Of a stretch of 64,000 nt of DNA, positions 11,015 through 35,526 are shown piece by piece. The notes beneath the pieces were generated by a model. That model was not told where the DNA came from, ran no database searches, and saw nothing but the letters and a program-made list of their open reading frames with translations. Source of the stretch: Flavobacteriales bacterium (lineage in GTDB: Bacteria > Bacteroidota > Bacteroidia > Flavobacteriales_D > Parvicellaceae); the NCBI GenBank assembly GCA_029243225.1, contig JAQWSL010000100.1:1-64000 (forward strand), written 5' to 3'. The first letter of the stretch is position 1, and every line of letters begins with the position of its first letter. Position numbers and translations under genes: made by a program.

Positions 11015-11026
11015 TAATAAAAAATT

Positions 11027-12286: not shown

Positions 12287-12297
12287 TTCTTAAATAT

Positions 12298-14429: not shown

Positions 14430-14430
14430 A

Positions 14431-15669: not shown

Positions 15670-15676
15670 ATAAACA

Positions 15677-17461: not shown

Positions 17462-17468
17462 GTTTTTT

Positions 17469-18791
17469 CTATTTAATATTTCTATAAGTATATGAAATTA
17501 AATCATGCTTATTAAAAAATTCGTTAATTGATAGATCTAAACTTTCTAATATTAATTCTTTTAAATCTTCTTTACTATTTGCACAAATTCCTGAAATAGT
17601 AGAATTAACAATAGGAAATTCAGGATTATTAGGAAATAGAACAGATTTAAAACCACAATATAATCTTTCATGAATTAGGGTTGAATTAAATGCAACTGCA
17701 AGATCAACTTTATCAAAAAGTTGAGCGTTAGAAAATTGATCATTCACTAACTCAAAATTAGTTTCTAATCCTAAAGTTTTTTGGTAATGATCTAAAGATT
17801 TTGAAAAGAATTCATTTGTCTTTTCCTTAGGATGAAGAAAAATATATAGCTTTAAATTTTTACGTTCAACCAATATTGATTTCAAACAATTTAAGACCTC
17901 TTTTTCCATTAATAAAAAATCTACCCCCTGATTGATATGACCTTTAATATCTCTGACCCAAGAAGCAGTAGAATAGAATCCTAAAGTATTTATTGGAGTC
18001 GAAGTATCATTATTGTACAAATTTTTATAATTAAATGACAATTCTGGGCCCCAAAACTCTATAGTTTCAGTAAGAATAGAATCCTTATAAAAATCATACT
18101 CTTCACGTTGATAATAATTACATAAAATAAGATTATTACATATAATATTTTGATTCCAAAGTGCCAAAGGAGTATCAGAAGAAATTTTATTAACTAAAAC
18201 ATTATTTTTCATTATAAAATCTGAGAAAAAATTTGATTCTTTTTCAAAAATTGAAAAATAATATAGCTCATTAATATTATTACTTTTTAATTTATTTATT
18301 AAATTATTTAACACAATTGGATATTCGAAAATTAAGGCGAATGATGACCTGTTTTCATAAAATTGACTAACAAAAAATGAGAATAAAACCAAGGGGAGTA
18401 TTAGAATTAAAAAGAATATCTTTTGAATGTAACTTTCAAAATAAAGAAGATTTTGATATGAAATAAAATTTAAATTTTCATGCCCTTTATAGTGTTTTAT
18501 ATACTCTAATCTTATTTCCTTAGATTTTGAATTACTATCAAATATTATTGGGAATCCGTAACTAAAAATAGTTTTAGATTTAATTACTTTAATTTTAAAA
18601 AATGATTTAAAAAATTTGATTACAATTAATCTATCATTAATAGATTTATTTGAAAATTTAAATGATTTGGAAAAAAGATGATTAATTATAATTCTCTCTT
18701 TATTTGATATAGCTTTATTTGTAAGCTTAAAATAAAGAAACTTAATTAATACTCTAACAAAAATCATCCATAAGATAATTTTATTAATCAT
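17469..18791 (-). CDS. Unidentified polysaccharide-locus protein, possibly glycosyltransferase
   Basis: A 440-aa protein that I do not assign to a family. It has a hydrophobic stretch near residues 125-145 (FFLILILPLVLFSFFVSQF) and otherwise soluble sequence rich in Asn, Lys and Ile. Near the C-terminus LYIFLHPKEK and VAFNSTLIHERLYCGFKSVL resemble donor-site segments of GT-B polysaccharide enzymes (HPKE-like motif, then a Ser/Thr-Glu-rich helix), as in KpsS or CDP-glycerol transferase-like proteins. It lies between an AsnB gene and the T9SS cargo gene, within the operon (8-bp gap). ATG start. A GT role is a guess from local motifs and context. Confidence 0.5.
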   Translation of the reverse strand: MINKIILWMIFVRVLIKFLYFKLTNKAISNKERIIINHLFSKSFKFSNKSINDRLIVIKFFKSFFKIKVIKSKTIFSYGFPIIFDSNSKSKEIRLEYIKHYKGHENLNFISYQNLLYFESYIQKIFFLILILPLVLFSFFVSQFYENRSSFALIFEYPIVLNNLINKLKSNNINELYYFSIFEKESNFFSDFIMKNNVLVNKISSDTPLALWNQNIICNNLILCNYYQREEYDFYKDSILTETIEFWGPELSFNYKNLYNNDTSTPINTLGFYSTASWVRDIKGHINQGVDFLLMEKEVLNCLKSILVERKNLKLYIFLHPKEKTNEFFSKSLDHYQKTLGLETNFELVNDQFSNAQLFDKVDLAVAFNSTLIHERLYCGFKSVLFPNNPEFPIVNSTISGICANSKEDLKELILESLDLSINEFFNKHDLISYTYRNIK

Positions 18792-18818
18792 AGAAATAGA
18801 TACTTAGGACTTTAAAAC

Positions 18819-21686
18819 TTAATACACAATTTTTTTAGAAACACTTAAGTTATTTTTATTGTTTATTAATGAAATTATGTATACGCCATGATTTAAAAAA
18901 TCAACATTAATACTAGTTTTAAAATCTGAGAATTTAACCATTCTTCCAGTCATATCAGAAATTAATACATAGTTGAACTGTTCATTATTACTAATTAAAT
19001 CTATATGCAAAGTTGAATTTGAAATGTAAATATTAAAATCATCGTTATAATTTGCATCATTTAAATCTAACAAGTCATCTTGCACACATATGTTATCTAT
19101 AAGAACATTTGTACATAGGCCTATACTGTCGTTATCTGCAGTCAAAGTAATTGTATATGTGCCAGCAATTTCGTATGTGTATATTGGATTTTCGTCAACT
19201 GAATAGTTCCCATCACCAAAATCCCATAAATAAGAATTAGAACCTAATGAATGGTTACTAAAATAGACTTCATTTGAAAAATCTAGTAATACTGTATCTA
19301 AAGGGAAAGAAAAATCAGCAATCACCTCTTCTTGTTCAGTTATAATAATATTTTGATTTATCATAGTGCAAGACCCAATATGATTAGTTTGTAATGAATA
19401 AATTCCTGCATTAATATTTAAAAAAGAAATAGAATCCGAAGAAGCCTCTAAAGAATCAATTAAAACCCCATTTTCATTATATACATTGAAATACGAACCT
19501 GAAATTCCATTTCCGGACAATGTAAATAAAGCACTATTGTCATTAAAACAAGTTGAGTTTGTAACATTAATATCGTAATCAACATTAATATGAAGAATAA
19601 ATCTTGGAGAAGGGGACAAAGTATCTGAAGCAAAAGTATAAGAACTATCTATTCTTAAATCTGAAACAGCACCTGTGTGCAAGTCTTCTAAAGTAATACA
19701 AGATCCTATCATAAACTGAGCTAAATCAAAGAAATCTATTGTGTAGTTACCAGGAGCAGCAGAACCAATTTTAACACCAATTGGAATATCTAAAGATTGA
19801 TTGTTATTAATTAGGTTTGCACCTAAACTATAACCATCTGATGAAATTGGAAAAATATTTGGAGCTAAATCTGGTAAAGGACTAAAAGATTTAACAACGT
19901 CTAACCCTTGATCAAAATTACTCGATGCATTTGAAACAGCTTTAATGAAACTAAAATCATGATATCCATTTACATCGCCAGAAATTTTAATCTTTAATGG
20001 ATTATTAATTCCATTTGAAGATTTAACATAAGTAGTTGAATTTGGTGATAAATGGCTTTGTTGGAAAGTTATATCTGTGCTACCAACAGATGTTTTATGA
20101 ACCCAAATGCCCTGACTATGAGAAATTATATTTGATAGAGTACCTCCACCAGATCCAGAATAAAAAACATTGTTACCAACATCTGCATCATAAATCCAGT
20201 AAGCATCATCAACAATAGAGCTATTATCGGCATGAAAAAGATCCCAATCTAAATTACAAGGGTATGGATTAGTAATTAAATTCCAACCTCTCTGATCAGT
20301 AGTCCCACCCTTAGTAACTGTTATATCTTGATCACCTGTATAAGGTGTTCCTGAAACAGATAATTTATAAGTGCTTGCATCGGTATATATCCATGTACCA
20401 GATGAAGGAGTTGTGTTGTCATTAATAGTACTTGCGTCCTGCCATCCAGCTTCTTTATTAGCATCTGTTGCAGCTGCTTCATCATAAGTGTAACTATTAA
20501 TCCATCCAAATGATGGATAATCAGAACCTGAAAAACCAGAAAATATTACACCATCATCTTGCCAATTAATAAGTTGAGTTGACATAACAGGAGAACCAAA
20601 CATTCTATAACCTTGAGAACTTGTAGGTATATACCTTTCAACAGTCAAATTTCCAAAATATGAACTTAACCCCAAATTTAGTTGACCAGCAGTATTGTCA
20701 GCGTCACTTTCAAGAACAACAGTTCCACTAACATTATTAAAATTTCCTGAGCTTAAATCAAATACTTCTTCAATATTTAAAATGCTACTTGAAAGAAGCA
20801 ATCCAGTACTATTATCCAAAGTTAAATTTTTAAAATTATTAGTACCTGAACCTGAAATAGTTTGAGTAGATGAACCATTAAAAGTTATTGTGTTACCCGA
20901 ACCTATAGAAGAAAATATAGCATTATTAGTCCAGTCTTCCAAAACAGTAAAATCACCATCAACACTAGTAGAACTATTTATTGTTACATTTTTATAATCA
21001 TTTGCTGCTGGAATTGGAAAATCGGAAGTGTTATTCCAAATTATGTCTCCATCACCAGAAAAAAAGCATGCAGTTGATGGCACATTAACCTTAAGGAATG
21101 ATGTTGTATTAACTATAAGAGTACCTTCATTTGTAAAAGTACTTCCAGATGATGATTTAACTAAACCGTTAACTGTTAAAGTATTACCTGAATTAATTTT
21201 CAATTTCCCGGAGGAAGACAACGATAATTCGCCATTAACAACTAAGTCTGAATCTATTTCAAGTATAGCCGAACTAATAACATTTAAATTAGCCAACGGA
21301 ATAGTCCCAGCACCATCCAAGGCACCAGATCTTACTTGATAATAATTTCCAGAACCAGAAATTACACCATTGTTTGTACTTGTTGTATTAAAACCATATA
21401 CATATAATGAATAAGTATTATCAAGAGCTAATTCACCGTCAATAAATAATTTACAAATCCTTGTATTACCAAGGCTTGAAGCTTGAACAATATGCCCAAT
21501 TTGAATCTCAACAGTATCATCTAAATCAGGGACATTATCTGCATCTGTACCAGATGTCAATAACCAAGTAGTAGGATTATCCCAATCACCAGAGGCTACC
21601 TGAGACTGAAAATAAGAAGGATCTTGAGAATAAAATAAATTGTATTGCAATACAAAAAACAGGAGTAAAAATAATCTATATTTCAT
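18819..21686 (-). CDS. Large T9SS cargo protein with PKD domain and type A sorting domain
   Basis: A 955-aa secreted protein. Signal peptide 1-20 (MKYRLFLLLFFVLQYNLFYS). A G8-like/adhesion region (GDWDNPTTW, PDLDDTVEIQIGHIV) opens the mature part, followed by long Ser/Thr/Asn/Gly-rich beta repeats; a PKD domain lies near residues 795-865 (SYLWDFGDGNYSVDENPIYTY); the last 71 residues are a type A C-terminal sorting domain (VLISDMTGRMVKF, NHGVYIISL, KKIVY). It should be exported by Sec and T9SS and anchored on the cell surface. It lies in the same orientation as the glycan genes but has its own promoter box (21706-21713). Ligand or function unknown. Confidence 0.88.
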   Translation of the reverse strand: MKYRLFLLLFFVLQYNLFYSQDPSYFQSQVASGDWDNPTTWLLTSGTDADNVPDLDDTVEIQIGHIVQASSLGNTRICKLFIDGELALDNTYSLYVYGFNTTSTNNGVISGSGNYYQVRSGALDGAGTIPLANLNVISSAILEIDSDLVVNGELSLSSSGKLKINSGNTLTVNGLVKSSSGSTFTNEGTLIVNTTSFLKVNVPSTACFFSGDGDIIWNNTSDFPIPAANDYKNVTINSSTSVDGDFTVLEDWTNNAIFSSIGSGNTITFNGSSTQTISGSGTNNFKNLTLDNSTGLLLSSSILNIEEVFDLSSGNFNNVSGTVVLESDADNTAGQLNLGLSSYFGNLTVERYIPTSSQGYRMFGSPVMSTQLINWQDDGVIFSGFSGSDYPSFGWINSYTYDEAAATDANKEAGWQDASTINDNTTPSSGTWIYTDASTYKLSVSGTPYTGDQDITVTKGGTTDQRGWNLITNPYPCNLDWDLFHADNSSIVDDAYWIYDADVGNNVFYSGSGGGTLSNIISHSQGIWVHKTSVGSTDITFQQSHLSPNSTTYVKSSNGINNPLKIKISGDVNGYHDFSFIKAVSNASSNFDQGLDVVKSFSPLPDLAPNIFPISSDGYSLGANLINNNQSLDIPIGVKIGSAAPGNYTIDFFDLAQFMIGSCITLEDLHTGAVSDLRIDSSYTFASDTLSPSPRFILHINVDYDINVTNSTCFNDNSALFTLSGNGISGSYFNVYNENGVLIDSLEASSDSISFLNINAGIYSLQTNHIGSCTMINQNIIITEQEEVIADFSFPLDTVLLDFSNEVYFSNHSLGSNSYLWDFGDGNYSVDENPIYTYEIAGTYTITLTADNDSIGLCTNVLIDNICVQDDLLDLNDANYNDDFNIYISNSTLHIDLISNNEQFNYVLISDMTGRMVKFSDFKTSINVDFLNHGVYIISLINNKNNLSVSKKIVY

Positions 21687-21705
21687 GAGTGGAAAAGGTA
21701 TATTA

Positions 21706-21713
21706 CAAATATA
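21706..21713 (-). promoter_or_regulatory. Putative -7 promoter box (TATATTTG) of the T9SS cargo gene
   Basis: Minus-strand TATATTTG matches TAnnTTTG and lies 20 bases before the ATG at 21686, for a leader of about 13 nt. It indicates that the T9SS gene, and perhaps the 14 genes downstream, can be transcribed independently of the upstream half of the locus. Confidence 0.5.
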
Positions 21714-21721
21714 CGATTTTC

Positions 21722-21733
21722 ATGTATATACAT
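21722..21733. promoter_or_regulatory. 12-bp perfect palindrome upstream of the T9SS gene promoter
   Basis: ATGTATATACAT is self-complementary and sits 9 bp upstream of the -7 box, between the expected -7 and -33 elements, a position where a dimeric repressor could act. In AT-rich DNA such palindromes can arise by chance, so the operator role is tentative. The rest of the 115-bp gap (21687-21801) shows nothing else. Confidence 0.25.
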
Positions 21734-21801
21734 ATAATTTAAACTTCCAAACGTAAAAATTAAAAATTAGATTATTAAAAAGATAATAATCAATCAATTA
21801 A

Positions 21802-22992
21802 TTATAATTTCAACACTCTATCAAGTATTGAAGAATTAAAATTCTCCAAAGAAAATAATTTCGATTTCTCATGAACATTAATTTTATAACTCTCAATATC
21901 ATTAACGCTAAGAGCATTAATACAATTTGCCATTTCATTTACATCAAATGAATTAGAAACGACACCGAAATTATTTTTCTCAGTAATTTCTTTCATTTCA
22001 TCAATAGGACTAACAGCTAAACATAAATTAGCTTGTATAAATTCAAAATACTTATTTGGCAAAGCATTACTCTCGTTAAAATTAGATGGAGATAAAAGAT
22101 ATAAACCAATATCATATTGGTTTAACATTTTAGAGATTTTTTCAGAAGATACAGGGTTTTCAAATATAACTTTATCTGTTTTCATTCTTTTTAACCTTTT
22201 AAAATATTCTCGATTAGATGGAACTAAAATTAAAGTCAAACTATAATTTTTGGGTAATAAATTAACGAGATCAATCATTTTATCAAGGTTTCTTGACGGA
22301 ATGGCCGCCCCGTGATGAACTAATTTTATATTATTTTCATCTACAATAGAAGGTTTAGTATCTTCATAATTCTTAACATTATAAAACACTAAAATATTTG
22401 ATTTATCAATATCGAAATTATGAGCATACTCTTCAGAAATACTTTTATTAACACAAAATAAAAGAGTTGCTTCTTTTAAAAACCTTGCACACAAACTATT
22501 TAAATAATATTCTTTTTGACTCCAATTATTTTGATCATTAAATTCTTTAGGATAATATTCATGTAAATTAACAATTAACTTACTCTTACTCTTTTTTGAA
22601 AAGTAAACCATAAATGGAAGGGAAGAAATATGATGATAAATAAGAATATCAAAGGTTAATGCCTTTAATTTGCTGTTTAAATAATAATATTTTAAATCAT
22701 ATAAAAAAGGGATATCTCTAGGTTTAACAAAACCAAATGAAAATAAAAATTTAAGCTTTAAAAATTGATTATGAATAAAATTTATGCCTGAATTTGATTT
22801 TTTTTTATTTTTCAGTATGATTGGATTAATATTAATATCTATGAACCTACTCTCATCTATGTAATTTGGTTTAAAATCACCTGCAATAAGTATATCAAAA
22901 TCATTTTTAAGAACTAAATATTCATTATATAACCTTGGAGCTCTATGAGAATTTCTTTCACAAACTATTAATATCTTTTTAAGGCTAGACAT
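21802..22992 (-). CDS. Glycosyltransferase (GT4-like)
   Basis: A 396-aa GT-B-like protein starting at ATG 22992 (a TTG three bases upstream adds one residue). The N-terminus KKILIVCERNSHRAPRLYNE and INLHEYYPKEFN resemble GT4 enzymes of surface glycan loci; LVHHGAAIPSRNLDKMIDLV is the donor-domain Gly-loop region and NESNALPNKYFEFIQANLCL stands in place of the EX7E motif. ATG is 7 bp from the acyltransferase gene, so it is co-transcribed. Substrates unknown. Confidence 0.8.
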   Translation of the reverse strand: MSSLKKILIVCERNSHRAPRLYNEYLVLKNDFDILIAGDFKPNYIDESRFIDININPIILKNKKKSNSGINFIHNQFLKLKFLFSFGFVKPRDIPFLYDLKYYYLNSKLKALTFDILIYHHISSLPFMVYFSKKSKSKLIVNLHEYYPKEFNDQNNWSQKEYYLNSLCARFLKEATLLFCVNKSISEEYAHNFDIDKSNILVFYNVKNYEDTKPSIVDENNIKLVHHGAAIPSRNLDKMIDLVNLLPKNYSLTLILVPSNREYFKRLKRMKTDKVIFENPVSSEKISKMLNQYDIGLYLLSPSNFNESNALPNKYFEFIQANLCLAVSPIDEMKEITEKNNFGVVSNSFDVNEMANCINALSVNDIESYKINVHEKSKLFSLENFNSSILDRVLKL

Positions 22993-22998
22993 CAATTT

Positions 22999-23799
22999 TT
23001 AAAATATTCTTGGTTTTTGGCTAACATAATTTTTTGTTTCAGAATCTTTGATATTTGACAAAACTGCACCTAAACCTACTATAGAGTTTGAATGAATATT
23101 ACAACCTTTAAGAATTGCAGCATATTTTCCTATCCACACATTATGCCCAATTAAAACTGGAGCTGTTTTAGGTTTAACAAAATCAGTTAGGCCATTTGGA
23201 AATTGATTTTTTATGTTTTTTCTTCTTAATTCTGGATCAATAGAATGAATATTTGAATCATATATTGTTGCATGATAAGAACATAATAAATAATCACCAA
23301 TTTGAATCTTTTCATCACACCTTATATCAGTGAAAAATCCAAATCCAGAATATCTCCCAATAGATAATTCTCCACCAAACCGAACTTGAATTTTCTCTAA
23401 AAATAATTTACATCTATTAGCAGTTGAAAAAATACCACTATTAATATAAATATTTGTTTGATGCATCTTAAAAGACCCAATAATTGTATGGACTCCAATA
23501 TTTGATTTAGAATTATTTAACACTCTGATTTCAGTGTTTTTTATTACGACATTATCCTGTATTACAAGAGTCGAGTTACTCTCACAACAAATGACAACAT
23601 TTTCAAGAATTACATTATCACCAATCTGAATAGTAGAATTGCCCTTTGAAATTATAGAAACATATTTTTTAATTAATGTCCCATTATAACTAATCTTAGA
23701 ATTATTTTCAACAGAAATATAATTAAAGGGGTCTTTACCTAAGATTTTCTTTATAAATACTAAAAGAAGAGATTGTTTAGAAAAAAAATCATTTATCAT
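22999..23799 (-). CDS. Hexapeptide-repeat acyltransferase
   Basis: A 266-aa protein with a long left-handed beta-helix: degenerate hexapeptides run from about residue 40 (IQIGDNVILENVVICCESNS) to the C-terminus (IGHNVWIGKYAAILKGCNI, NSIVGLGAVLSN). ATIYDSNIHSID supplies the His expected for acetyl transfer. It is longer than the WcaF-type copy at 5481-6029 and probably O- or N-acylates a different sugar. ATG start overlapping the Wzt gene end by 11 bp. Confidence 0.83.
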   Translation of the reverse strand: MINDFFSKQSLLLVFIKKILGKDPFNYISVENNSKISYNGTLIKKYVSIISKGNSTIQIGDNVILENVVICCESNSTLVIQDNVVIKNTEIRVLNNSKSNIGVHTIIGSFKMHQTNIYINSGIFSTANRCKLFLEKIQVRFGGELSIGRYSGFGFFTDIRCDEKIQIGDYLLCSYHATIYDSNIHSIDPELRRKNIKNQFPNGLTDFVKPKTAPVLIGHNVWIGKYAAILKGCNIHSNSIVGLGAVLSNIKDSETKNYVSQKPRIF

Positions 23800-25063
23800 C
23801 CCATTTATGTTTTAAATAAATACCATTGTAATTATTAGGATAAGTATATGCTTCACTAATAAAGCTTCCACCCTGTATCTCAAAATACGTTAAATCCTTA
23901 ATCCAATCTTCTGTAATTTGATTCTTTTTTAGAATTACATTTATTATGAATTTACCAGATGAGAAAGGCACTTCGAACACTTCACATTTAACAGAATTAA
24001 ATCCAGGTTTCAAGCTAATATTATAATCTAAATATTCATTACCTATCATTGAACATACTCTATCATCAGAACTCCTAAATCCTATGGCAATTTGAACAGA
24101 TTGGTTAGATTGGGTATAATTCTCTAATCCTAAATAAAATCTAATATTGTCACCTATACAAAATTGTTTTGTCTCAACATTGTTCACGTTGAGAATTTTA
24201 AAATCATTAAATTGAATATTACCCAACCCCGACCTAGAAACTTTATTAAAATTAATTTCCTTAATTGAATTTCCTTTTTGATAATGTTCAATCACGTCTG
24301 CTATATTGTTGGATTCAAATGATATTTCTCCTTGATTTAGAACCACCCCTCTATTGCATAGATTTCTAATGCTTCCCATATTATGACTCACAAATAAAAC
24401 CGTTCTACCCTCGTTTTCACTGACTTCTTTTATCTTTCCAACAGCATTTTTTTGAAATTCATAATCTCCAACGGCCAACACCTCATCAACAATTAAAATA
24501 TCTGGTTCTAAGAATGCAGCAACTGCAAAACCTAACCTAACACGCATTCCTGATGAAAAACGCTTAACAGGTGTATCAACATACATTTGACATCCCGAGA
24601 AATCAATAATATCATCAAATTTCTTTTTTATTTCTTCTTTTTTCATCCCCAAAATTGCTCCATTCAAGAAAATATTTTCTTTAGCAGTCATTTCTGGATG
24701 CATTCCCGTTCCAACTTCTAACAATGAAGCTATGTTACCTTTATACTTAATTAAACCTTCCGTGGGAGATGTAATTTGAGAAATCAATTTCAGCAATGTT
24801 GATTTACCAGCACCATTTTTACCAATTATTCCTAAAACATCACCTTTATTAACATGAAGGTTTAAGTTTTTTAAAACCCATACAAAGTCATGAATAGCTT
24901 TGACATCTCTTTCATTTTTATGAGTAATTAGTTTAGCAGGGTCATCTTTTCCTCTTATTTTCGCAATAAAGCTATTTAAATCATGAGAAAGTGTTCCAGT
25001 CCCAAACTGACCCAGTCTATACATTTTACCAAGTCTTTCTATTTTCAATACTAGATCACTCAT
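23789..25063 (-). CDS. wzt: Polysaccharide ABC exporter ATPase (Wzt-like) with C-terminal glycan-binding-like domain
   Basis: A 424-aa ABC ATPase of the teichoic-acid/O-antigen exporter type (TagH/Wzt). Walker A GKNGAGKST at residues 81-89, ABC signature FSSGMRV (169-175) and Walker B ILIVDE (189-194) are intact. Residues from about 260 to 424 form an extra beta-rich domain, as in Wzt proteins where it recognises the capped end of the O-polysaccharide before export. It pairs with the permease gene, overlapping it by one base. An export system with this domain normally handles a fully polymerised undecaprenyl-linked chain. ATG start. Confidence 0.92.
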   Translation of the reverse strand: MSDLVLKIERLGKMYRLGQFGTGTLSHDLNSFIAKIRGKDDPAKLITHKNERDVKAIHDFVWVLKNLNLHVNKGDVLGIIGKNGAGKSTLLKLISQITSPTEGLIKYKGNIASLLEVGTGMHPEMTAKENIFLNGAILGMKKEEIKKKFDDIIDFSGCQMYVDTPVKRFSSGMRVRLGFAVAAFLEPDILIVDEVLAVGDYEFQKNAVGKIKEVSENEGRTVLFVSHNMGSIRNLCNRGVVLNQGEISFESNNIADVIEHYQKGNSIKEINFNKVSRSGLGNIQFNDFKILNVNNVETKQFCIGDNIRFYLGLENYTQSNQSVQIAIGFRSSDDRVCSMIGNEYLDYNISLKPGFNSVKCEVFEVPFSSGKFIINVILKKNQITEDWIKDLTYFEIQGGSFISEAYTYPNNYNGIYLKHKWDDK

Positions 25064-25938
25064 TATATTTTATCAATAAAAGTTTTTTCTGATTTGTTAA
25101 AAATTAATATCCCAACAACTAAGACGATAAAGGAAAACACAAAAGAATATATTAAACCTTCAATATAAACTTCACCTTTTCCTAAAAATACAAACCTAAA
25201 TGTTTCCAAAATATGTGTGAAGGGGTTTAGATACATAAAGGTTCTAATTTTCAATTGAGATGCACTATGACCTATAGAACTTAAAGGATAAATAATTGGA
25301 GTTGCAAACATTAATAATTGTATTCCAAATTGAATGAAGAATTTTAAATCACGATATTTTACAGTAATTGATGTGAAAACTAAACCTAAACCTAAACCTA
25401 ACATTGCCATAACAATTAACAATAAAGGAAACAAAGCAATGTAATAGCTAGGGTTTATTATAACCCCATTATACAAATAATAAAAGAAAAAAAACAGAAA
25501 TAATAAAAATTGCACACAAAACTTTAATAAGCCAGATATTGATTTTGATAGAGGTATTATTAATCTTGGAAAATAAACCTTTCCGAATAAATTCTGATTT
25601 TCATTAAAAGTATCGGAAGTTTGTAAAAAACATTCTGAAAAATAATTCCAAACAATAATACCAGACAAATAAAATAATGGTTGAGGAATCCCATCTGTTG
25701 AAATTTTAGCAATATTTCCAAAAACAATGACATAAGCAAGCATCATCATTATTGGTTGAATAAAATACCATATAGGACCAAGAATAGTTTGCTTATAAAG
25801 AGTTACAAAGTCCCTGTAAATAAATCTAAAAAGTAAATCTTTGTACTTAAATAACTCATTTAATTTTAATTTAAACAAGTTATGTTCTTCACCTATTACT
25901 CTTGTCCATTTAATTTCAGACGAATTATTCTCTTTCAT
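25063..25938 (-). CDS. wzm: Polysaccharide ABC exporter permease (Wzm-like)
   Basis: A 291-aa ABC-2 type permease with six hydrophobic segments (e.g. PIWYFIQPIMMMLAYVIVFG, LLLIVMAMLGLGLGLVF, GLIYSFVFSFIVLVVGILIF). The N-terminal amphipathic stretch and RDFVTLYKQTILGPIW are typical of Wzm/TagG. With the adjacent Wzt-like ATPase it should flip undecaprenyl-PP-linked polysaccharide across the inner membrane. ATG start; 20 bp from the NeuB-like gene. Confidence 0.92.
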   Translation of the reverse strand: MKENNSSEIKWTRVIGEEHNLFKLKLNELFKYKDLLFRFIYRDFVTLYKQTILGPIWYFIQPIMMMLAYVIVFGNIAKISTDGIPQPLFYLSGIIVWNYFSECFLQTSDTFNENQNLFGKVYFPRLIIPLSKSISGLLKFCVQFLLFLFFFFYYLYNGVIINPSYYIALFPLLLIVMAMLGLGLGLVFTSITVKYRDLKFFIQFGIQLLMFATPIIYPLSSIGHSASQLKIRTFMYLNPFTHILETFRFVFLGKGEVYIEGLIYSFVFSFIVLVVGILIFNKSEKTFIDKI

Positions 25939-25958
25939 TTTAAAAATTAATGCTAGAT

Positions 25959-26645
25959 CTAAATGTTTCTAATAATTTCAAACTCTTTTGAAATGTTTTT
26001 AATTAATGTTAAATCATGCATATTCATTGATCCTAAGTGAGCTTGCTCTGTAATGTATTGATGAGATTGCTGTAGAGTAAAATGTTTTTCTAAAAACATT
26101 GCACCATGAGCAGAGGCAAAAAGAGCTCCTGAATTTCCTAATGTATGGTCAGAAACACCCTTAAAACAAGATTTTTGAAAATCTGGCATTGAAAATTCAT
26201 CTAATCTAGTTGGATATTTCACAACACAATACAAATATGTAGCGTGATCAAACTTCTCTACCTTACTGGGGTTTAAGTCTGAAGGTATTGAAACAAATGT
26301 TTGTATTTTTTGTTTCATTATCTCTTTCACAAGATCAGGCATTTCTAAATGCATTCTTGCCGCTACTTTAAGATATGGCAAATTCAACTTTATACACCAA
26401 TCTAATCTATCAAAGGTAAAAGGTGTTGCAAAAAGAGGAATATTTAAGTTGTCTGCAAAAATTTTAAGTCTTTTAAGGTCTTCAAAAGACATAGACAAAT
26501 AAGCTCTTTCAGAACCAAATTGAGTGTCTGTATAAAGCTGTACTTTTATTGCATCGGCACCAGCTAATTTAGATTGTAGAATCATTTGTTCAGCGACTTC
26601 AACTTTACCGCTAAATTGTGGAGATATTTCTGAAATTATAAACAT
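25959..26645 (-). CDS. NeuB-family sialic-acid-synthase-like protein lacking the SAF domain
   Basis: A 228-aa TIM-barrel protein of the N-acetylneuraminate synthase family. GADAIKVQ (29-36), FATPFTFDR, the metal-ligand-like His residues in GVSDHT (H167) and EKHFTL (H188), and a terminal LGSMNMHDL match NeuB/PseI/LegI. It ends where the barrel ends: the 60-100 residue SAF (antifreeze-like) domain, which in known enzymes completes the partner's active site, is absent, and only 20 bp separate the stop from wzm. The N-terminal NHxG motif is replaced by SPQFSG. Product could be a nonulosonate-like keto acid, or the protein may be divergent in function. ATG start. Confidence 0.75.
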   Translation of the reverse strand: MFIISEISPQFSGKVEVAEQMILQSKLAGADAIKVQLYTDTQFGSERAYLSMSFEDLKRLKIFADNLNIPLFATPFTFDRLDWCIKLNLPYLKVAARMHLEMPDLVKEIMKQKIQTFVSIPSDLNPSKVEKFDHATYLYCVVKYPTRLDEFSMPDFQKSCFKGVSDHTLGNSGALFASAHGAMFLEKHFTLQQSHQYITEQAHLGSMNMHDLTLIKNISKEFEIIRNI

Positions 26646-26646
26646 A

Positions 26647-28326
26647 TTATTTTAATTCATATAATTTTAAATCATAATACAAAAGATGTTTTGTATCTAA
26701 TAAAGTTAATTTAGAAGAATCAATTTTATTATAAAAAAATAAATCACCTCGCATTTTTTTAAACAATAAATATTTTTTCTTGTCATCATATTGCAAATAT
26801 AATTTATCAAATGAATATTTTTCACTATTAAGTGAATAAGGATTTAATATCGGCACAGAATTAGTATACAAACTATAAGAATGCGGAAAACCATCTATTA
26901 AATAATTCCCCTCTAACAAAGGTCTTATTTCAGTCAAATAGTCTCTTATTTCAAATTTCTTATTTATATAATAGACATTACTTATTATTAAAAACATTAA
27001 AATAATACAAAAAGAAAAACCAGTATACATAATTTTTAAATTGCTTTTAACTAAAATAAGAAAACTAAAAATGCCAAAAACTAGAAGAGGAATAATGGAA
27101 ATAAAAAATGATAAATTGGCATAATAGCCATAATTAAAGCTATTCCAATAATTAACAGAATAATTCAATTTGTATGAATATATAACTAATGGAATTGTCA
27201 ATAGAATAGAAATTAAAACTGATTTATTCTTTTCAGAATTATTATTTTTTTTGAAAAACTCTAAGCCAAAACAAAACACAATTGGAAGTAATACAATCCA
27301 TTTTTTAAAAGGGTAACTATTAAGGAATATAGATTGTAAAAAAGCACATAAAATTATTACTAATAATAAATCAGATTTAAAAAGTTTAAAACCTCTATAA
27401 AATATTTCTTTGAATCTATATGTGAAATAAAAAATTAAAAAGAATAGCCAAATATTATTATATCTAAAAAGATTTGTAAAGAAAACTGAACTTAAATTCT
27501 TCAGTCCAGAAATAATAATAGTTGAAATTCCAAAATTACTTTCTATTGAAAATGCACTTCTTTTAGAATTAAAAGTAATGAAAATATTCAAATAGTCTTC
27601 AAGTGTATTGCCCAATAATGCAATAGTAATTAAAAACAAAATAAAGGCAGTAATCCCTCCTAAAAACAAAGGAATAATCAGTTTAAAATTCTTTTGATTA
27701 ATTATAAAAATAAGGTAATATGAGCAAACACCTAAAGCAAAAAACACATTATATATATAGACAAATAAAATAGATGAAATAGCCAAAAAAGAAACAACAA
27801 ATAATTGTTTATTTATATTCTTTATATAATAAAAACAAAATAAAGAAAAGCTTAAAATTAAAATTGAATATATCTGAGGAGTTTGAAACCTACAAAAAGT
27901 GAAAAAATAAAAATCTGATAGCAAAAAGCATAGTAAAAAATATTTTGAAAATGAATCATTTTTTAGTTCTTTACAAGAAATCTTAAAGAGAAAAAAAACA
28001 ACAATTAAAGATATAAATGGAACACCAAATCTTAACCCCCAGTAATTGTTACCAAAAAGATGAAATGACAAATAGGTTAAAGGAGTACTATACAAGCAAA
28101 CCAAATCTGATGAAGTTGTGTTGAAATTTGGATCAGTTTTACCAACATCATTATAATACCGCAGCAAACCTCCTATAGAATAATATGACTCATCCTCTTG
28201 AGAAATCCCAGAAACCATGTAAGAGGGAACATCTTGATCCAAATATAGGAATCTAGAAAAAAGCAAAATAACAACAACCAGTTGGATAGAAAATTTGAAA
28301 ATATTATGAGAGGAAAATCTTAACAT
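26647..28326 (-). CDS. Polytopic membrane glycosyltransferase-like protein (GT39/GT-C type)
   Basis: A 559-aa integral membrane protein with about 11 hydrophobic helices (for example FSIQLVVVILLFSRFLYL, FGVPFISLIVVFFLFKI, LIIPLFLGGITAFILFLI). The first loop with QEDESYYSIGG resembles the acidic loop of GT-C enzymes that use polyprenyl-phosphate sugars (ArnT/PMT), and a soluble C-terminal tail follows. A GT39-like role in adding a branch sugar on the periplasmic side is inferred; direct motif support is modest. ATG start; 1 bp upstream of the NeuB-like gene and overlapping the AsnB copy 3 end by 23 bp. Confidence 0.65.
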   Translation of the reverse strand: MLRFSSHNIFKFSIQLVVVILLFSRFLYLDQDVPSYMVSGISQEDESYYSIGGLLRYYNDVGKTDPNFNTTSSDLVCLYSTPLTYLSFHLFGNNYWGLRFGVPFISLIVVFFLFKISCKELKNDSFSKYFLLCFLLSDFYFFTFCRFQTPQIYSILILSFSLFCFYYIKNINKQLFVVSFLAISSILFVYIYNVFFALGVCSYYLIFIINQKNFKLIIPLFLGGITAFILFLITIALLGNTLEDYLNIFITFNSKRSAFSIESNFGISTIIISGLKNLSSVFFTNLFRYNNIWLFFLIFYFTYRFKEIFYRGFKLFKSDLLLVIILCAFLQSIFLNSYPFKKWIVLLPIVFCFGLEFFKKNNNSEKNKSVLISILLTIPLVIYSYKLNYSVNYWNSFNYGYYANLSFFISIIPLLVFGIFSFLILVKSNLKIMYTGFSFCIILMFLIISNVYYINKKFEIRDYLTEIRPLLEGNYLIDGFPHSYSLYTNSVPILNPYSLNSEKYSFDKLYLQYDDKKKYLLFKKMRGDLFFYNKIDSSKLTLLDTKHLLYYDLKLYELK

Positions 28327-30115
28327 TAATGAAATTAAATATAAACTTTTTAAAACTATTTGAATATTCTTTCCTTTTTAATAATGTTTCTATTTTTTCT
28401 TTGTTCACAAAATCAAAAACTTTAGAATCATCTAATAAATATTCAATATGGTTTTTATTATTAAAATCTATTATTGAATTTATAGATGCATTAAATCCTT
28501 TTTTCTCACGATCTAGTCTAACTTTATCATTTAGAACTCCCGCCATTGACTCTCTTAGTAAATATTTTGCATAACCATTTTTAATAAGAAGTTTACTTGG
28601 TATAGAATAAACAAATTCAAATAATTCTTTATCCAAAAAAGGGCTTCTATTTTCTAATGAATAATACATAGAGTTCAAATCATCTTCATGTAAAATAACT
28701 CTTACAACTTCATGAAACAATTCGTTAATCATTCTATTTCTAAGTAAAGAAGATGTATAATTAGATTCTGTGAAATTTTCTTTAAATGGAATGTTTAGAT
28801 ATTCTAAAAATTTATTACTATTTAAATAAATATGCTCTCTTAGCATAGGGTTGTTGAAATATAAATCATGCTTTTTAAAATATGGATGACGAATATATTT
28901 AAGCGGGAATTTTTTCCAATCATTTAAATATGACTCGAAATCTTTATCATTTCTTACATTATAAAGATGTAGATTAAAATGGTCATAATATCCTGTAAAA
29001 ATCTCATCTGCAGCGGTTCCTGAAATCGAAATTTTAAATCCTTTAGAAGCTATTGCTTCAGACAACATAGAATGAACAAAGTAACTAATAGTTGCCACAG
29101 GAGCATCATGATATTTAACTAAATTCTCAAGTCTTGAAATATTGTCTGCTTTAGAGTCTAATTTCACTTTATAACTTTTGCAACCTATATCATTTACTGT
29201 CGACATAATATTTTCATACTCATCGTACCTTTTATCGCTATCTATAATTGAAAAAGAAGACACATCATAATTAAATTCTTTTGCTGCTAATGAAACTAAA
29301 CTTGCAGAATCGACTCCTCCACTCAAGCAAAATGCCAAAGGAACATCAGATCTTAATCTTAGCTTTAAACTCTTTTTCAAATAATGCTTTATTCCATCAA
29401 TTGCATCAGATTCAGAAATATTTTTAGGTGTATATGAAGGCTTCCATTATTTATATGTTTTAATCTCAGTATTTTCAATAATCAAATTTGAAGCATAATC
29501 AACTTCTTTTATCTCATCATAAAATGTTTCAGATGTTTTATAAAGAGATTTATGACCATTAACAAGATACCTAAATAACTGATTATTATTTACTGTTAAA
29601 TTTTTCCCACACAACTTTTTAATTGCTTTAACTTCTGAAGAAAAATAAAATCCGCTTGCTGTTTCGTGATAATACAAAGGTTTCTCAGCAAATCTATCAC
29701 GTGATAAAAAGAGCTTATTCTTAATTTTATCATACAAAGCAAAGCTCCACATTCCTTCAAATTTATTGACACAATTTTCACCAAAATAAAGGTATGATTG
29801 AATTAAAACTTCTGTATCAGAATTTGTTTTAAAAACAGCACCTAAGCTTTCAAGTTCTTTTCTAATTTCGATATAATTATATATTTCTCCATTAAAAACA
29901 AGAATACAATGCTTTCTAATAAAAGGTTGATTAGATCTTGAATCTAAATCAATAATTGACAATCTTGAATGAATAAGAGTAACAAAATGACCAGCATTTG
30001 AAAAACAAATGAAATCCTGAAAATCAGGCCCTCTATTTTTCATCACATTGATAGTGTCCAAAACTTGCTTGTTTGATATTGGCGATTTGCCAATATATCC
30101 TGCAATTCCACACAT
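28304..30115 (-). pseudogene. asnB: AsnB-type amidotransferase (copy 3) interrupted by an in-frame TAA
   Basis: One 604-codon frame, from ATG 30113-30115 to 28304, is broken at codon 223 by TAA (29447-29449). The first part (MCGIAGYIG, RGPD, FNGEIYNYIE) is a full glutaminase domain; after the stop the same frame continues WKPSYTPKNISESDAI and LAFCLSGGVDSASLV (PP-loop) to the usual end. The stop sits where family members have Tyr/Phe before Trp, as in copy 1 (INSFWDI), so one base change from TAT/TAC explains it. No other lesion is seen. It may be a recent null mutation, a sequencing error, or two polypeptides, the second from TTG 29380. Confidence 0.82.
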
Positions 30116-30116
30116 A

Positions 30117-30674
30117 TTAAAATTTTTGTTCTAAGAAATTAAGATCTTCAATAGTATGAACGTCCAAACAATCGAATGTCACAAAACCACAATGAGCACT
30201 TAAAAAATTATTATTTATCTGGTCAACCCTTACAATTCTAAATGCAGCATTTTGAACACCGTTACTATCTGCTGACATTACTTCCCATAAATTATATTTC
30301 TTCATTAAATCAAAGCCATCATCAATTGCAATATTTGTGATTTCAGGAGAATTAGCCTGAGGAATTATCACAACATCTGGATCACCATCTTTTAACAATG
30401 CTTGTTGTTTCAATGCTGATCTTATAGCTACAATTTTAGGCGTCAAGTCATCAGCCAACTCTGAATCTCTCATTAATGATTTGGCTCCATACTGCTCAGC
30501 AACATTTAATATTTCAACATCATCTGAACTAACATAAACATCATTAATAAAAGAAGATTTAAAACATGCTTCAATAGTATAGGCCAATAAAGGTTTTCCT
30601 TTAAATGGATGAATGTTTTTTTTCAAAAGGCGTTTAGATCCTCCTCTAGCCGGTATAATTGCAATAATTCTCAA
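30117..30674 (-). CDS. CMP-sugar (acylneuraminate-type) cytidylyltransferase
   Basis: A 185-aa nucleotidyltransferase. IIAIIPARGGSKRLLKKNI is the cytidylyltransferase P-loop signature; PFKGKPLLAYTIEAC, YVSSDDVEILNVA and QANSPEITN match NeuA/PseF/LegF/KdsB-type enzymes, and the C-terminus closes with DVHTIEDLNFLEQ. It should activate a keto sugar acid as a CMP derivative, using CTP. It is short compared with NeuA (about 225 aa) but has both ends of the domain. The start is TTG, forming TTGA with the stop of the upstream gene. With the NeuB-like and PseG-like genes it suggests a nonulosonate-type pathway. Confidence 0.85.
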   Translation of the reverse strand: MRIIAIIPARGGSKRLLKKNIHPFKGKPLLAYTIEACFKSSFINDVYVSSDDVEILNVAEQYGAKSLMRDSELADDLTPKIVAIRSALKQQALLKDGDPDVVIIPQANSPEITNIAIDDGFDLMKKYNLWEVMSADSNGVQNAAFRIVRVDQINNNFLSAHCGFVTFDCLDVHTIEDLNFLEQKF

Positions 30675-31753
30675 TTTATATTTTTTAAAATGTCTTCGGC
30701 AATTAATTCTGCACCATTCAAATTTATTTGATGATTTTCCATGTTTAATCTTAATGATTTATATTCATTCTTCACAAAAGAAGGAAGAAATGTTTTCAAC
30801 CTTTTTTCAAACTCTTCGAGTGAAATAAACGAGGCCAAACCTGCAATCTTTAAATTAATTATATTTTCGTTGATTTCTGGATTCATTGCTTCACCAATCA
30901 ATAACATAGGTATCCTGTAAGCAATACATTCAGATATAGTATTAAAACCCGCTCTACTAATTATTAGATCCATTTCATGGATATAATCAATCATAAGTTC
31001 TCCCTTTTTCAAAGTATTAACATTTAAAGAATCAGAATAATAACCATCTGCAACATAAAATTGAAAATCATCCAATTCTTTTACTTTTTTCATTGCAAAA
31101 TCTATTGAATTTTTTAACAAACCTGAACCACTATCAATAATTAAAACTTTAAATAATGTATTCTCTTTTATTGTTTTAAAACTATGATTGTTTCTTATTA
31201 TAAGTGGCATTTCTTTAGCATTTTCATAATGATTTATAATTTCTTTTGGTGTAAAAGGAGGGAAGTATATTGTTGTTGCCTTGTTGGCATACTTAAAAAA
31301 CAAATCAAGTGTTTTTGATGATAATGGTGGAGGGTATAATTTACTAAAAAACCAATCCCAAGTGAAATGAGCAACTCCAAATGAAGGTATGTTGTTTAAT
31401 GAAGCTAGTTCAAATGCTTCATAAACAAAATCAGAAATAATAAAATTGTATTTAGAAAAATCTTCTTCAGAATTAATGAATGATTTGGACTTAATTTCAT
31501 AATCCTTAAAATGCTTTTTTATTTTAATAAGATCTGGTGACCCATTTTTTTTCTTATGCCAAGAAATATTATTGTATTTATCAATAAATTCATCAACAGT
31601 ATTGATTTCTTTAGAAACATTAATAAACTTATGAGTTTGTAAAGAAAATGATATTGAATTATTTGACAAGGAATTTATTTGCTCAATTATTGCTTGTTGT
31701 CTTACAATATGCCCATAACCTTCATCAGATAGATATATCTTTGCTTTTTTCAA
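30671..31753 (-). CDS. GT-B-fold protein, PseG/MurG-like
   Basis: A 360-aa GT-B-like protein. The N-terminal KIYLSDEGYGHIVRQQAII is the glycine-rich first loop seen in MurG, PseG and arabinokinase-type GT domains; the C-terminal ISRAGFNTISECIAYRIPML is the donor-binding segment of the same superfamily, containing the conserved Glu. It could be a UDP-sugar hydrolase (PseG role) feeding the NeuB-like synthase, or a glycosyltransferase. TTG start (no Met before residue 150); it overlaps the cytidylyltransferase gene by 4 bp. Specific reaction undetermined. Confidence 0.68.
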   Translation of the reverse strand: MKKAKIYLSDEGYGHIVRQQAIIEQINSLSNNSISFSLQTHKFINVSKEINTVDEFIDKYNNISWHKKKNGSPDLIKIKKHFKDYEIKSKSFINSEEDFSKYNFIISDFVYEAFELASLNNIPSFGVAHFTWDWFFSKLYPPPLSSKTLDLFFKYANKATTIYFPPFTPKEIINHYENAKEMPLIIRNNHSFKTIKENTLFKVLIIDSGSGLLKNSIDFAMKKVKELDDFQFYVADGYYSDSLNVNTLKKGELMIDYIHEMDLIISRAGFNTISECIAYRIPMLLIGEAMNPEINENIINLKIAGLASFISLEEFEKRLKTFLPSFVKNEYKSLRLNMENHQINLNGAELIAEDILKNIN

Positions 31754-31786: not shown

Positions 31787-34132
31787 TTATTCCTTTTCTT
31801 GACCATACCCATATCCATATCCATATCCATATCCATATCCATACTTACCGTAATAACTCCATTTTTTAAACTTAATTCCATTTAAAATCAAGCCAACACT
31901 TTTAATTTTATTCTTCTTTACAACATCTTCAATAAATGCAATTCCCTTATTATTTGCCTTCTTAACATTCATTACAAAAATACTTGAATTCACCTTTGAA
32001 GATAGATAAAGTCCATCACTTACATATCCAACAGGTGGAGTATCTAAAAATAAATAATCAAAATTATCCTTAGCATACTCAATTATTTGATCAACTCTAT
32101 CAGACAAAACTAATTCAGAAGGGTTTGGCGGTACAACTCCACAAGGTAAAACAAATAAATTCTCTTCAAATTCTTGAATTAAATCATTAAGAGATACTGA
32201 ACCAGATAAAAAATTAGAATTACCAATTTTAGTATCTAATTTTAAGACTTTATGAATTTTTGGTTTGTGTAAATCAAAATCTACCAAAAGGACTTTTTTT
32301 CCTGTTCTACTAATTATTCTTGAAAGATTTACACTCATAAATGTTTTACCTTCTCCAGGATGAATAGATGAAATTAAAAATGATTTTAATTTATTATCAG
32401 TTTCATTTCCATTAAAAAAACTCATAGAAGTACGAATATTTCTTAAAGATTCTGCAAAATTAGATTTTGAAATTATTTCTGCTAATAATACATCTTCTTC
32501 CATATCTATTAGAGGGACTCCACCAAGAATAGGAAAATCAGATACCGAACTTATTTCAGTGATAGTTTCAATTTTATTAAAAACTAAATGCTTTAAAATA
32601 GATAAAATTAATGCTGCAATTAAACCGAAAAGAATAAACAAATATGTTAACGACTCGGAGTCATTATCTATTCTACCTAAAAGCCTTGCTTTTTCAATCA
32701 CTTTGGTCTGAGGAATTATTCCTGATCTTGCTATATATGTGTTTGCTCTTTTTTCTAATAAAAAAGTATATAACCTTTCACTAACCTCTAGTTTTCTATT
32801 TATTGCTTCTAATTCTCTTTCTGATTTAGGAACATTTCTAACCAATTTTTTAAAATGTTTAATTTCATTTTCTTCATCTATAATTTTTTGTTCGAGTGCC
32901 TTTTCAGTATTATCAATGTAATTAAGGATGTCTCTTCTTTGATTGGCAATAGACTCGTTCAACTTTAACAAATCCTGATGCTCTTTTTTAACACCATATT
33001 TCAAATCAACTTTTTTAAGTTGTGATTGATAAAACTTAGAAATTGATTGATCTAAATAAATATCATCATCCATAATAAATATAGATGGAGGAATAACATT
33101 TTCATCTTGAACTGTAAGAATATAATCTTTCAAACTTATTAAAGATTTATTTTTTAATTTCAATTGTCTTTTCAACGACTCATGCGTCATAAGATCCCTA
33201 AAATATTCATTAGATTCTTTATCAATGTCTAATATTCCTTTTTTATCTCTTACATTTTGCAAATCATATTCAATAGAATCCATTATTGAAACCACTTCGT
33301 CTAATTGAACGTTAATGTATCTTAAAGTATTTTCATTGATTTTGAATTGATTTTGAATTGTGTAATTGATGTAGACTTGAGCTAAAGAATCTAAAAATAT
33401 TTTCGACCTAATTGGAACTTCATCATTTAATTCTAATGATAGTATAGAAGTGAATTCAACATTATTCACTTTTAAATTACTTAAGATTCTTCTTACCCAA
33501 TAATTCATAGAATGAATAACAACTTTGTAATTAATACCAATACTATTTTCAATATTAAAAGATTTTGACAAATTAGAATTAATAGAATAATCTACAGAAA
33601 TTTCTGTTGAGTCAAAATGGTGGGTACGAATTACCTTTTCACCTTGTAACTCATAAGAAATAGAATATTTATTTTCATCTAAAATTTTAAAATCAATTGG
33701 TTTTTCATAAAGATTATTATCAAGTATATTAATTGAAATGTCAAATGGCATACCATTGAAAAATTCTTTAGTATTCAACCTACCTTCAATAAAATAAGAT
33801 TTCGAAAAATCTAGTTTAGATAATGTTTGCTCAATTAAATCATAGGATGTAATAATTCTGATTTGATTGGTAACATCACCATAGTAATTATAAAAGCCCA
33901 CATTTGAATAAATATTTTCCTGATAATCATAAACATCATTTGATTTTAGAAGAATTTCAATTTTGGATGCATAATTAGGTACTATTTTGTGTTTATAGTA
34001 TAACCCCAAAAAAAAGAAAATAATAGGAAACAAAAGAAAGAAATACCAACTTTTAGAAACAGCCTTTAACAACCATTTAAAATCATTAAATGATATTATT
34101 TTAGCAGAAAAATTATTTTTTAAACTTTCCAA
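31787..34132 (-). CDS. Wzc-like chain-length regulator/BY-kinase with Tyr-Gly tail
   Basis: A 781-aa polysaccharide co-polymerase. It has two membrane helices (about 30-50 and 505-525), a Wzz/GNVR periplasmic domain with coiled-coil stretches between them, and a cytoplasmic tyrosine-kinase domain: Walker A HPGEGKT (591-597), Walker A' VLLVDFDLHKP and Walker B YLFLDTPP. The C-terminal tail is a run of GY repeats plus YY, the autophosphorylation cluster. A TAA lies in frame 9 bases upstream of TTG 34130-34132, so that TTG is the start. Likely controls chain length and export; first gene of the minus locus, with a promoter box at 34209-34216. Confidence 0.9.
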   Translation of the reverse strand: MESLKNNFSAKIISFNDFKWLLKAVSKSWYFFLLFPIIFFFLGLYYKHKIVPNYASKIEILLKSNDVYDYQENIYSNVGFYNYYGDVTNQIRIITSYDLIEQTLSKLDFSKSYFIEGRLNTKEFFNGMPFDISINILDNNLYEKPIDFKILDENKYSISYELQGEKVIRTHHFDSTEISVDYSINSNLSKSFNIENSIGINYKVVIHSMNYWVRRILSNLKVNNVEFTSILSLELNDEVPIRSKIFLDSLAQVYINYTIQNQFKINENTLRYINVQLDEVVSIMDSIEYDLQNVRDKKGILDIDKESNEYFRDLMTHESLKRQLKLKNKSLISLKDYILTVQDENVIPPSIFIMDDDIYLDQSISKFYQSQLKKVDLKYGVKKEHQDLLKLNESIANQRRDILNYIDNTEKALEQKIIDEENEIKHFKKLVRNVPKSERELEAINRKLEVSERLYTFLLEKRANTYIARSGIIPQTKVIEKARLLGRIDNDSESLTYLFILFGLIAALILSILKHLVFNKIETITEISSVSDFPILGGVPLIDMEEDVLLAEIISKSNFAESLRNIRTSMSFFNGNETDNKLKSFLISSIHPGEGKTFMSVNLSRIISRTGKKVLLVDFDLHKPKIHKVLKLDTKIGNSNFLSGSVSLNDLIQEFEENLFVLPCGVVPPNPSELVLSDRVDQIIEYAKDNFDYLFLDTPPVGYVSDGLYLSSKVNSSIFVMNVKKANNKGIAFIEDVVKKNKIKSVGLILNGIKFKKWSYYGKYGYGYGYGYGYGYGQEKE
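31805..31846. repeat. Hexanucleotide tandem repeat in the wzc-like gene tail
   Basis: Five perfect ATATCC units (31811-31840), flanked by near-copies ATACCC and ATACTT. On the minus strand it encodes alternating Gly-Tyr. Unit length 6 keeps the frame, so slippage would change the number of phosphorylatable Tyr residues without breaking the protein. Confidence 0.9.
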
Positions 34133-34222: not shown

Positions 34223-34229
34223 ATTACAA

Positions 34230-34442
34230 ATGAACAAAATAATCCCCACTACACTAACAATTATACTAATTTTCTCAAGTGTAATTATTCTAGCTCAAGG
34301 TAGCCCTCCAGGTGGGCCTGGTGGAGCTCCTTGCTGGCCACCCCCTTGTGTTCCAATTGATGGTGGCATAAGTATTTTAGTAGCTATTGGCGCTTTTTTT
34401 GGTGGCAAATCATTTTACGACTTTTTGAAAACTAAACATTGA
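34230..34442 (+). CDS. 70-aa PID-type exosortase substrate-like peptide
   Basis: A tiny exported protein: signal peptide 1-22 (cleavage after A22), a Pro/Gly-rich segment with two Cys (C35, C40), then PIDGG (42-46), a hydrophobic helix (47-59) and a short basic tail ending KTKH. This tripartite end (motif, helix, basic tail) is the layout of exosortase/archaeosortase sorting signals, and PIDGG-helix short proteins occur in Bacteroidota. After signal removal and cleavage near PID only about 20 residues would remain, so there is essentially no passenger domain. It is directly upstream of and in frame with the exosortase gene. Role unknown. Confidence 0.72.
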   Translation: MNKIIPTTLTIILIFSSVIILAQGSPPGGPGGAPCWPPPCVPIDGGISILVAIGAFFGGKSFYDFLKTKH

Positions 34443-34448
34443 TCTTTT

Positions 34449-35030
34449 TTGAATTTATCTGATCTACGAGAATTATTTAGAAGTAAATCGTTTAGATTCA
34501 TACTCCTATTTCTTGCAGGAATTATTATTTGGTTTAGCTTTTATCATTTTATTTATGAATTTGACAAGCTACTTTCATCAAATTCTCAACAAGTAGATAT
34601 TAAAAAAAGTATTTCTATTTTACTTGCCGAGCAATCAAATTATTTTCTTTCTATTTTAGGTTACCAACCGCAAATTGAAATCTATTCTGACATGGTTGTA
34701 ACACTAATTCAAGACACTAAATACAATCACGGTGTTTGGATTGGAGAACCTTGTAATGGACTTAAACTTTTTGGAGTTTTCTCAATTTTCATAATTGCAT
34801 TTCCTGGAGATTTTAAAACAAAACTTTGGTACATCCCGTTAGGAGTAATAATTCTACATTTTATTAATGTTATTAGAATTGCTATTCTCACAATTATACA
34901 AGCTTACAATCCATTATTCTTAAATTTCAATCACAATGTCACTTTTCAAGTAATTATTTATTCGTTTATTTTTCTTTTATGGTATTTATGGACAAAAAAA
35001 TTTAGCTCTTTATCTAAAAAAAATGAGTAA
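34449..35030 (+). CDS. Exosortase family transpeptidase-like membrane protein
   Basis: A 193-aa membrane protein with about five hydrophobic segments. The exosortase/archaeosortase catalytic set is visible: Cys102 in GEPCNGLKLFG, Arg143 in INVIRIAIL and His162 in NFNHNVTF. These enzymes cleave PEP/PID-like sorting signals and probably transfer the cargo to a cell-surface glycan or lipid. The start is TTG (34449): the in-frame TGA of the upstream peptide gene lies 6 bases earlier and no ATG occurs before residue 82. The exosortase subtype (XrtF, XrtX or other) cannot be fixed here. Confidence 0.85.
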   Translation: MNLSDLRELFRSKSFRFILLFLAGIIIWFSFYHFIYEFDKLLSSNSQQVDIKKSISILLAEQSNYFLSILGYQPQIEIYSDMVVTLIQDTKYNHGVWIGEPCNGLKLFGVFSIFIIAFPGDFKTKLWYIPLGVIILHFINVIRIAILTIIQAYNPLFLNFNHNVTFQVIIYSFIFLLWYLWTKKFSSLSKKNE

Positions 35031-35526
35031 AAAATTTACCATAATATTCACTTTAATTATTTCCAGTTTATTTCTTGATTTTTTTAGAGATTATGTTTTT
35101 CAAAATATAAATTTTCAAATACATTATTTATCTCATTTTAGAAACGGAATCTCAACAACTTTCAACATGACTGATAGTAGAATATTCTCTATTATCAATC
35201 ATTTATCTATACCAGAATTAGAAAAAATAAAATGGGTTTTTAGTCTGCTATTCATTTGCACTTTTCAGCTCACAACTATTTTTATATCAGAAAATATTTT
35301 TCAAAAAAAAGGCCTCACTTTTTTCTTGCCAATAACATTTATTCTCAGCTGTTTTTCGTTACTAGCATATTATTTTAGCACCATATCAGACTCCTTAAAT
35401 CACAGCTATTCTTTTTACTACATTTCAATTGAAATAAGTCATTTTTTACAATCTTCACTTATCGTTATTTCTATGTTAATGATTTTTAAAGTTTATCTAC
35501 TATTAAACACATCATCTAACAAGTAA
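35023..35526 (+). CDS. Exosortase-associated polytopic membrane protein
   Basis: A 167-aa protein with four likely membrane helices (FTIIFTLIISSLFLDFF, WVFSLLFICTFQLTTIF, TFFLPITFILSCFSLLAYYF, LIVISMLMIFKVYLLL). Its ATG overlaps the exosortase stop region by 8 bp (ATGAGTAA). Small membrane proteins in this position occur next to exosortases of Bacteroidota, so a partner role is likely from context, but I see no diagnostic motif. Last gene of the module; the glyA promoter begins immediately after its stop. Confidence 0.6.
   Translation: MSKKFTIIFTLIISSLFLDFFRDYVFQNINFQIHYLSHFRNGISTTFNMTDSRIFSIINHLSIPELEKIKWVFSLLFICTFQLTTIFISENIFQKKGLTFFLPITFILSCFSLLAYYFSTISDSLNHSYSFYYISIEISHFLQSSLIVISMLMIFKVYLLLNTSSNK

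Follow-up and report, generated by a model that had tools for sequence, protein, structure and literature searches.

Exosortases are known as sorting enzymes for many surface proteins. The question raised by positions 34230-35526 of the window (the whole analysed stretch of 64,000 nucleotides from a Flavobacteriales bacterium) is what such an enzyme does beside a substrate that has almost nothing to deliver. A sequence-only reading had proposed a single dedicated, almost passenger-less substrate with an exosortase and a membrane partner. This proposal was supported: the three-ORF cassette lies at exactly these coordinates, and the genome of the window (2.2 Mb, 86.5% complete) contains one PID protein and one exosortase scoring over cut-off. 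Its description as an undescribed small system was not upheld, since PID-CTERM, XrtX and the XrtX-associated protein are all named families in NCBIfam and the kind of cassette is thus already known; our literature search found no paper on XrtX or PID-CTERM. The cassette is genuine and conserved, and of a kind that already has a name; its chemistry and role we infer below.

The first gene (34230..34442, + strand) encodes the PID-CTERM mini-substrate of 70 aa, identified by its match to NF046080, its layout and its dN/dS. The PID_CTERM match covers residues 41-64 with 36.5 bits, above the curated cut-off of 26. As had been described, the protein has a signal sequence, PIDGG, a helix and a basic tail: the signal peptide (1-22) is followed by the predicted mature part (23-44), GG, the membrane helix and the tail, with boundaries of the mature part set by a simple rule written for this analysis and not by a signal-peptide predictor. 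The predicted mature part, QGSPPGGPGGAPCWPPPCVPID, has 22 aa with 13 Pro/Gly and two Cys residues. The earlier count of about 20 Pro/Gly/Cys residues was right as to composition and slightly high in number, at 15 up to PID and 17 including the following GG. The dN/dS of the gene is 0.20 between the window and the related locus L067, 0.04 between L067 and L068, and 0.04-0.24 for all pairs with finite dS (dS is saturated for the window and L068). Homologues with the same layout adjoin XrtX in several bacterial families. Because of these low ratios and these homologues, the 70-aa ORF is regarded as under coding selection and not as coding by chance, which removes a doubt raised at the outset.

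The exosortase gene (34449..35030, + strand; 193 aa, TTG start) begins 6 nt past the stop of the 70-aa ORF. Its product scores 50.9 bits with TIGR04178 (cut-off 23) and 27.6 bits with PF09721 (cut-off 25.7), so that, together with NF046080, the suggested search with exosortase and PID-type models was positive for all three. The best-scoring model is XrtX, NF046081, with 144.5 bits against a cut-off of 170. In the tree, the enzyme falls within a 39-row XrtX clade (support 98/94) that is separate from XrtF (100/99) and XrtY (98/92). We rejected an XrtF identity, given a score of 89.7 bits with TIGR04128 (cut-off 90) and a position outside the XrtF clade. All surveyed exosortases from the bacterial family of the window score below the XrtX cut-off; some pass that of XrtF while the sampled members sit in the XrtX clade, and this mismatch is a naming hazard. 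The catalytic residues, which the earlier reading had listed, are conserved, with Cys102 invariant in 82 of 82 aligned relatives and Arg143 and His162 unvaried in the 81 of 81 sequences ungapped there. The AlphaFold model is a helical, multi-helix membrane protein (pLDDT 90.6), and a structure search for solved or remote relatives of the exosortase gave no meaningful match.

The third gene (35023..35526, + strand) overlaps the exosortase ORF by 8 nt and encodes the small membrane partner of 167 aa. It matches NF046082 weakly (16.9 bits, cut-off 75) and scores 149.7 bits with a profile built from its relatives; of the 22 relatives aligned with it, NF046082 recognises 20. On these profile scores the gene is assigned as a divergent XrtX-associated membrane protein, in agreement with the partner role given to it before. 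A serine hydroxymethyltransferase-like gene lies 29 nt beyond it.

On the other side of the cassette, a divergently transcribed gene (31787..34132, - strand) encodes a Wzc-like polysaccharide co-polymerase/tyrosine autokinase (TIGR01007, 147 bits, cut-off 108), followed by an exopolysaccharide cluster (6030..31753, - strand) with glycosyltransferases, NeuB, a cytidylyltransferase, an ABC2 and Wzt-like ABC transporter, asparagine-synthase-like genes and an epimerase. The expected siting beside an exopolysaccharide locus was therefore confirmed, and it extends to relatives: a divergent wzc-like gene is found upstream in 45 of 51 loci. Among the remaining six, two end within 600 bases at contig ends (L084, L091), three come from genus g37, whose PID gene sits at another site (L117, L119, L121), and L086 is unexplained. 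A wzc neighbour of the PID gene was also seen in other families of the class, and the order PID-xrtX-partner is kept wherever the locus is intact. 

Several further features of this neighbourhood were recorded. The C-terminal end of the Wzc-like protein is a Gly-Tyr repeat, GKYGYGYGYGYGYGYGQEKE; the asparagine-synthase-like genes lie at 7159-9027, 15677-17461 and 28304-30115 (- strand). At L100, L108, L111, L112, L096 and L098, in families f8 and f10, wzc and pid are separated by a gene whose product, of ~800-1040 aa, is probably a secreted surface protein. Identity between the window and L067 falls to 45-63% at 34141-34320, where the spacer between wzc and pid meets the start of pid, against mostly 85-98% in xrtX, the partner gene and glyA; the drop possibly marks a recombination edge of the sugar locus.

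The pairing of one enzyme with one tiny substrate was then compared across genomes. No further PID or PIDGG protein was found in the genome of the window (86.5% complete) even at E <= 10, so large PIDGG proteins elsewhere in it, which would have made the small protein one of many, were rejected. Among 299 genomes of the order, PID_CTERM (E <= 0.01) occurs in 111, XrtX-like enzymes (E <= 1e-8) in 133 and both in 107 (Fisher p 4e-50, kinship ignored); genomes with both usually carry one of each. Of the 26 XrtX genomes without a PID match among those listed, at least nine have a neighbouring PID peptide according to a local profile, examples being the loci L087-L092, L047, L063 and L123. At the class level, PID-CTERM is present in 159 of 395 genomes, mostly as one protein and in a few genomes as 2-5, and nearly all confident matches are open frames under ~200 aa, with one apparent exception, a frame of 995 aa (G482). 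A passenger-less substrate unique to the genome of the window was thus rejected. The missing passenger is the rule and not the exception, which is the new result of this work, and throughout Bacteroidia the usual arrangement is such a one-enzyme-one-peptide pair beside surface-sugar genes. An XrtY enzyme with an adjacent PID protein was not sustained as a further pair, being seen in only one of 15 XrtY-search loci (L171).

The passengers themselves are mostly short and rich in Pro and Gly. Within the order, 88 distinct passengers have a median length of 25 aa and a median Pro+Gly content of 55%, nearly all with an initial Gln, which fits the Bacteroidetes Q-rule (PMC10653852). Exactly two Cys residues occur in the predicted mature part of 77 of the 88 distinct ORFs. 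The product in the window would be a ~22-residue two-Cys peptide, in line with the ~20-residue Cys-containing peptide originally predicted, and might hold a disulfide; the earlier suggestions for its role, as a linker, scaffold or primer, are conjectural. However, the class includes Cys-less PID proteins with 12-residue products (QPSNPTPPVPLD, QPDNPNNPVPID), so Cys or disulfide chemistry cannot be the general function and was rejected as such. A minority in family f9 have passengers of 53-64 residues with 8-10 Cys. PID proteins with passengers of this size and Cys content were seen at L114-L116, L118, L120, L060, L063 and L123, and in genus g37 they are unlinked to XrtX.

A related exosortase, XrtF, has a target reported as unknown (PMC12188702), and xrtF and its partner are needed for biofilm in Flavobacterium johnsoniae (PMC10936215). 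A mini-substrate next to XrtF itself was sought and rejected, with none at true XrtF loci; XrtF genomes carry unlinked Pro-rich mini-proteins that end in PID, helix and basic tail. A profile of six such sequences was searched (E <= 1e-4) against 43 genomes, one per genus, of the bacterial family to which the XrtF genomes belong, which judging by XrtF is probably Flavobacteriaceae; one of the 43, G361, had also contributed to the profile. The mini-protein was found in 26 genomes, XrtF in 27 and both in 25 (Fisher p 1.3e-8, kinship ignored), that is, in 25 of 27 genomes with XrtF vs one of 16 without it. XrtF stands alone in G688, which has a weak 66-aa match, and in G709; the mini-protein stands alone in G693, which is 84% complete. 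ribE and pdxA adjoin the mini-gene in 25 of the 26 genomes, and in a set of 22 of the mini-proteins 19 show some PID_CTERM match at E <= 10. The mini-proteins (loci L282-L307, in the family of G361) are the best candidates for the target of XrtF.

Gene order suggests which gene this would be in F. johnsoniae. Fjoh_0651 is a hypothetical gene whose deletion was complemented by a 434-bp fragment including the promoter; the deletion shares a row of Table 2 with the xrtF and Fjoh_1449 deletions, a row also held by Fjoh_0334 and porZ mutants (PMC10936215). porZ is Fjoh_0707, 56 tags from Fjoh_0651. The mini-gene lies ~61 kb from the PorZ gene (762.8 bits, cut-off 260) in G538 and ~60 kb from the reciprocal best match of that gene in G361. 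A crude count of ORFs from mini-gene to porZ gives 47 (G361) and 72 (G538), which brackets 56 and does not fix the position. The order suggests that the ribE-adjacent mini-protein is Fjoh_0651.

For the window, we favour, by a modest degree of belief, an exosortase X system in which one enzyme serves one substrate and which is tied to a surface polysaccharide made in a Wzc-dependent way. Sec would export the 70-aa pre-peptide, and signal peptidase would expose the Gln, which is probably cyclised to pyroglutamate, while the C-terminal helix and basic tail would keep the pre-peptide in the inner membrane. XrtX would cleave near PID-GG through Cys102/Arg143/His162 and may transfer the resulting peptide of ~22 residues to an acceptor with an amine group, for which a lipid is the likeliest choice. 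Both the cut and its coupling to transfer are proposed on the strength of the enzyme family, in which archaeosortase A of Haloferax couples cutting to the attachment of a lipid at the C-terminus (PMC7157517). With both ends blocked, the product would be an envelope-anchored Pro/Gly-rich peptide that might help to export, retain or organise the polysaccharide of the neighbouring wzc cluster; an envelope or biofilm role is suggested by the requirement for xrtF and its partner in F. johnsoniae biofilm together with the wzc linkage. Against this reading, the conserved gene order may simply be inherited and need not mark a functional link, and true XrtF is not linked to its candidate substrate. Some class members would also leave 12 residues and no Cys, so what is exported may be of small importance.

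A different reading of the same features, which we consider unlikely, is that the mini-protein is an accessory and not a product, namely a small membrane subunit, cut or uncut, or a signal, with a regulatory effect on XrtX, the partner or Wzc. The close wzc linkage would suit it, as would the near absence of a passenger and a passenger sequence that varies and can shrink to 12 residues with no Cys. However, the mini-protein has all three parts of the sorting signal by which exosortase substrates are defined, with the PID core as its most conserved part, and in XrtF genomes and genus g37 the gene is unlinked yet co-occurs with the exosortase, as expected for a substrate. A role of the peptide as primer or acceptor for polysaccharide building or ligation, giving a peptide-glycan conjugate, is more doubtful still: the wzc linkage and the neighbouring glycan cluster agree with it, but Wzc-type systems build on undecaprenyl carriers and the passengers have no conserved Ser/Thr/Asn acceptor. 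That the real substrates are larger surface proteins whose signal has diverged, the mini-protein being one of several targets, is improbable despite the few class members with several PID proteins and the incomplete genome of the window, since that genome gave a single PID match at the loosest threshold and PID proteins beyond ~200 aa are so rare.

The one-substrate reading of XrtX can be widened. We lean, again only slightly, towards XrtX and XrtF both being mainly one-substrate enzymes whose PID-type mini-protein targets release a short, blocked, Pro-rich envelope peptide, with Fjoh_0651 as the target of XrtF; if true, this would explain the likeness of its deletion to that of xrtF. XrtF thereby gains a named and easily tested target candidate, for which deletion mutants exist in F. 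johnsoniae (PMC10936215). Two Bacteroidia exosortase subfamilies appear to serve one tiny peptide each, and the role of exosortases in biofilms becomes a question about one short peptide.

Among known systems, the closest are the exosortase X (NF046081), PID-CTERM (NF046080) and XrtX-associated (NF046082) families, whose three parts and gene order are those of the window; the window cassette exceeds the PID_CTERM cut-off, whereas its exosortase (144.5 of 170 bits) and partner (16.9 of 75) fall below theirs. XrtF (TIGR04128) and its associated protein (TIGR04127) likewise combine a related exosortase and a small partner with a co-occurring PID-type mini-protein, but XrtF forms a separate clade and its candidate substrate is unlinked, beside ribE-pdxA, and without the Cys pair. 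Archaeosortase A, acting on PGF-CTERM proteins, belongs to the same enzyme superfamily as XrtX and couples cleavage to C-terminal lipid attachment; in contrast, it is archaeal and its targets include the large S-layer glycoprotein. XrtA with PEP-CTERM proteins also pairs an exosortase with a C-terminal signal, helix and basic tail beside exopolysaccharide genes. PEP-CTERM genomes may hold many diverse targets, as with the 35 in Nostoc punctiforme, which has cyanoexosortase B (PMC12188702), whereas XrtX usually has one target with almost no passenger.
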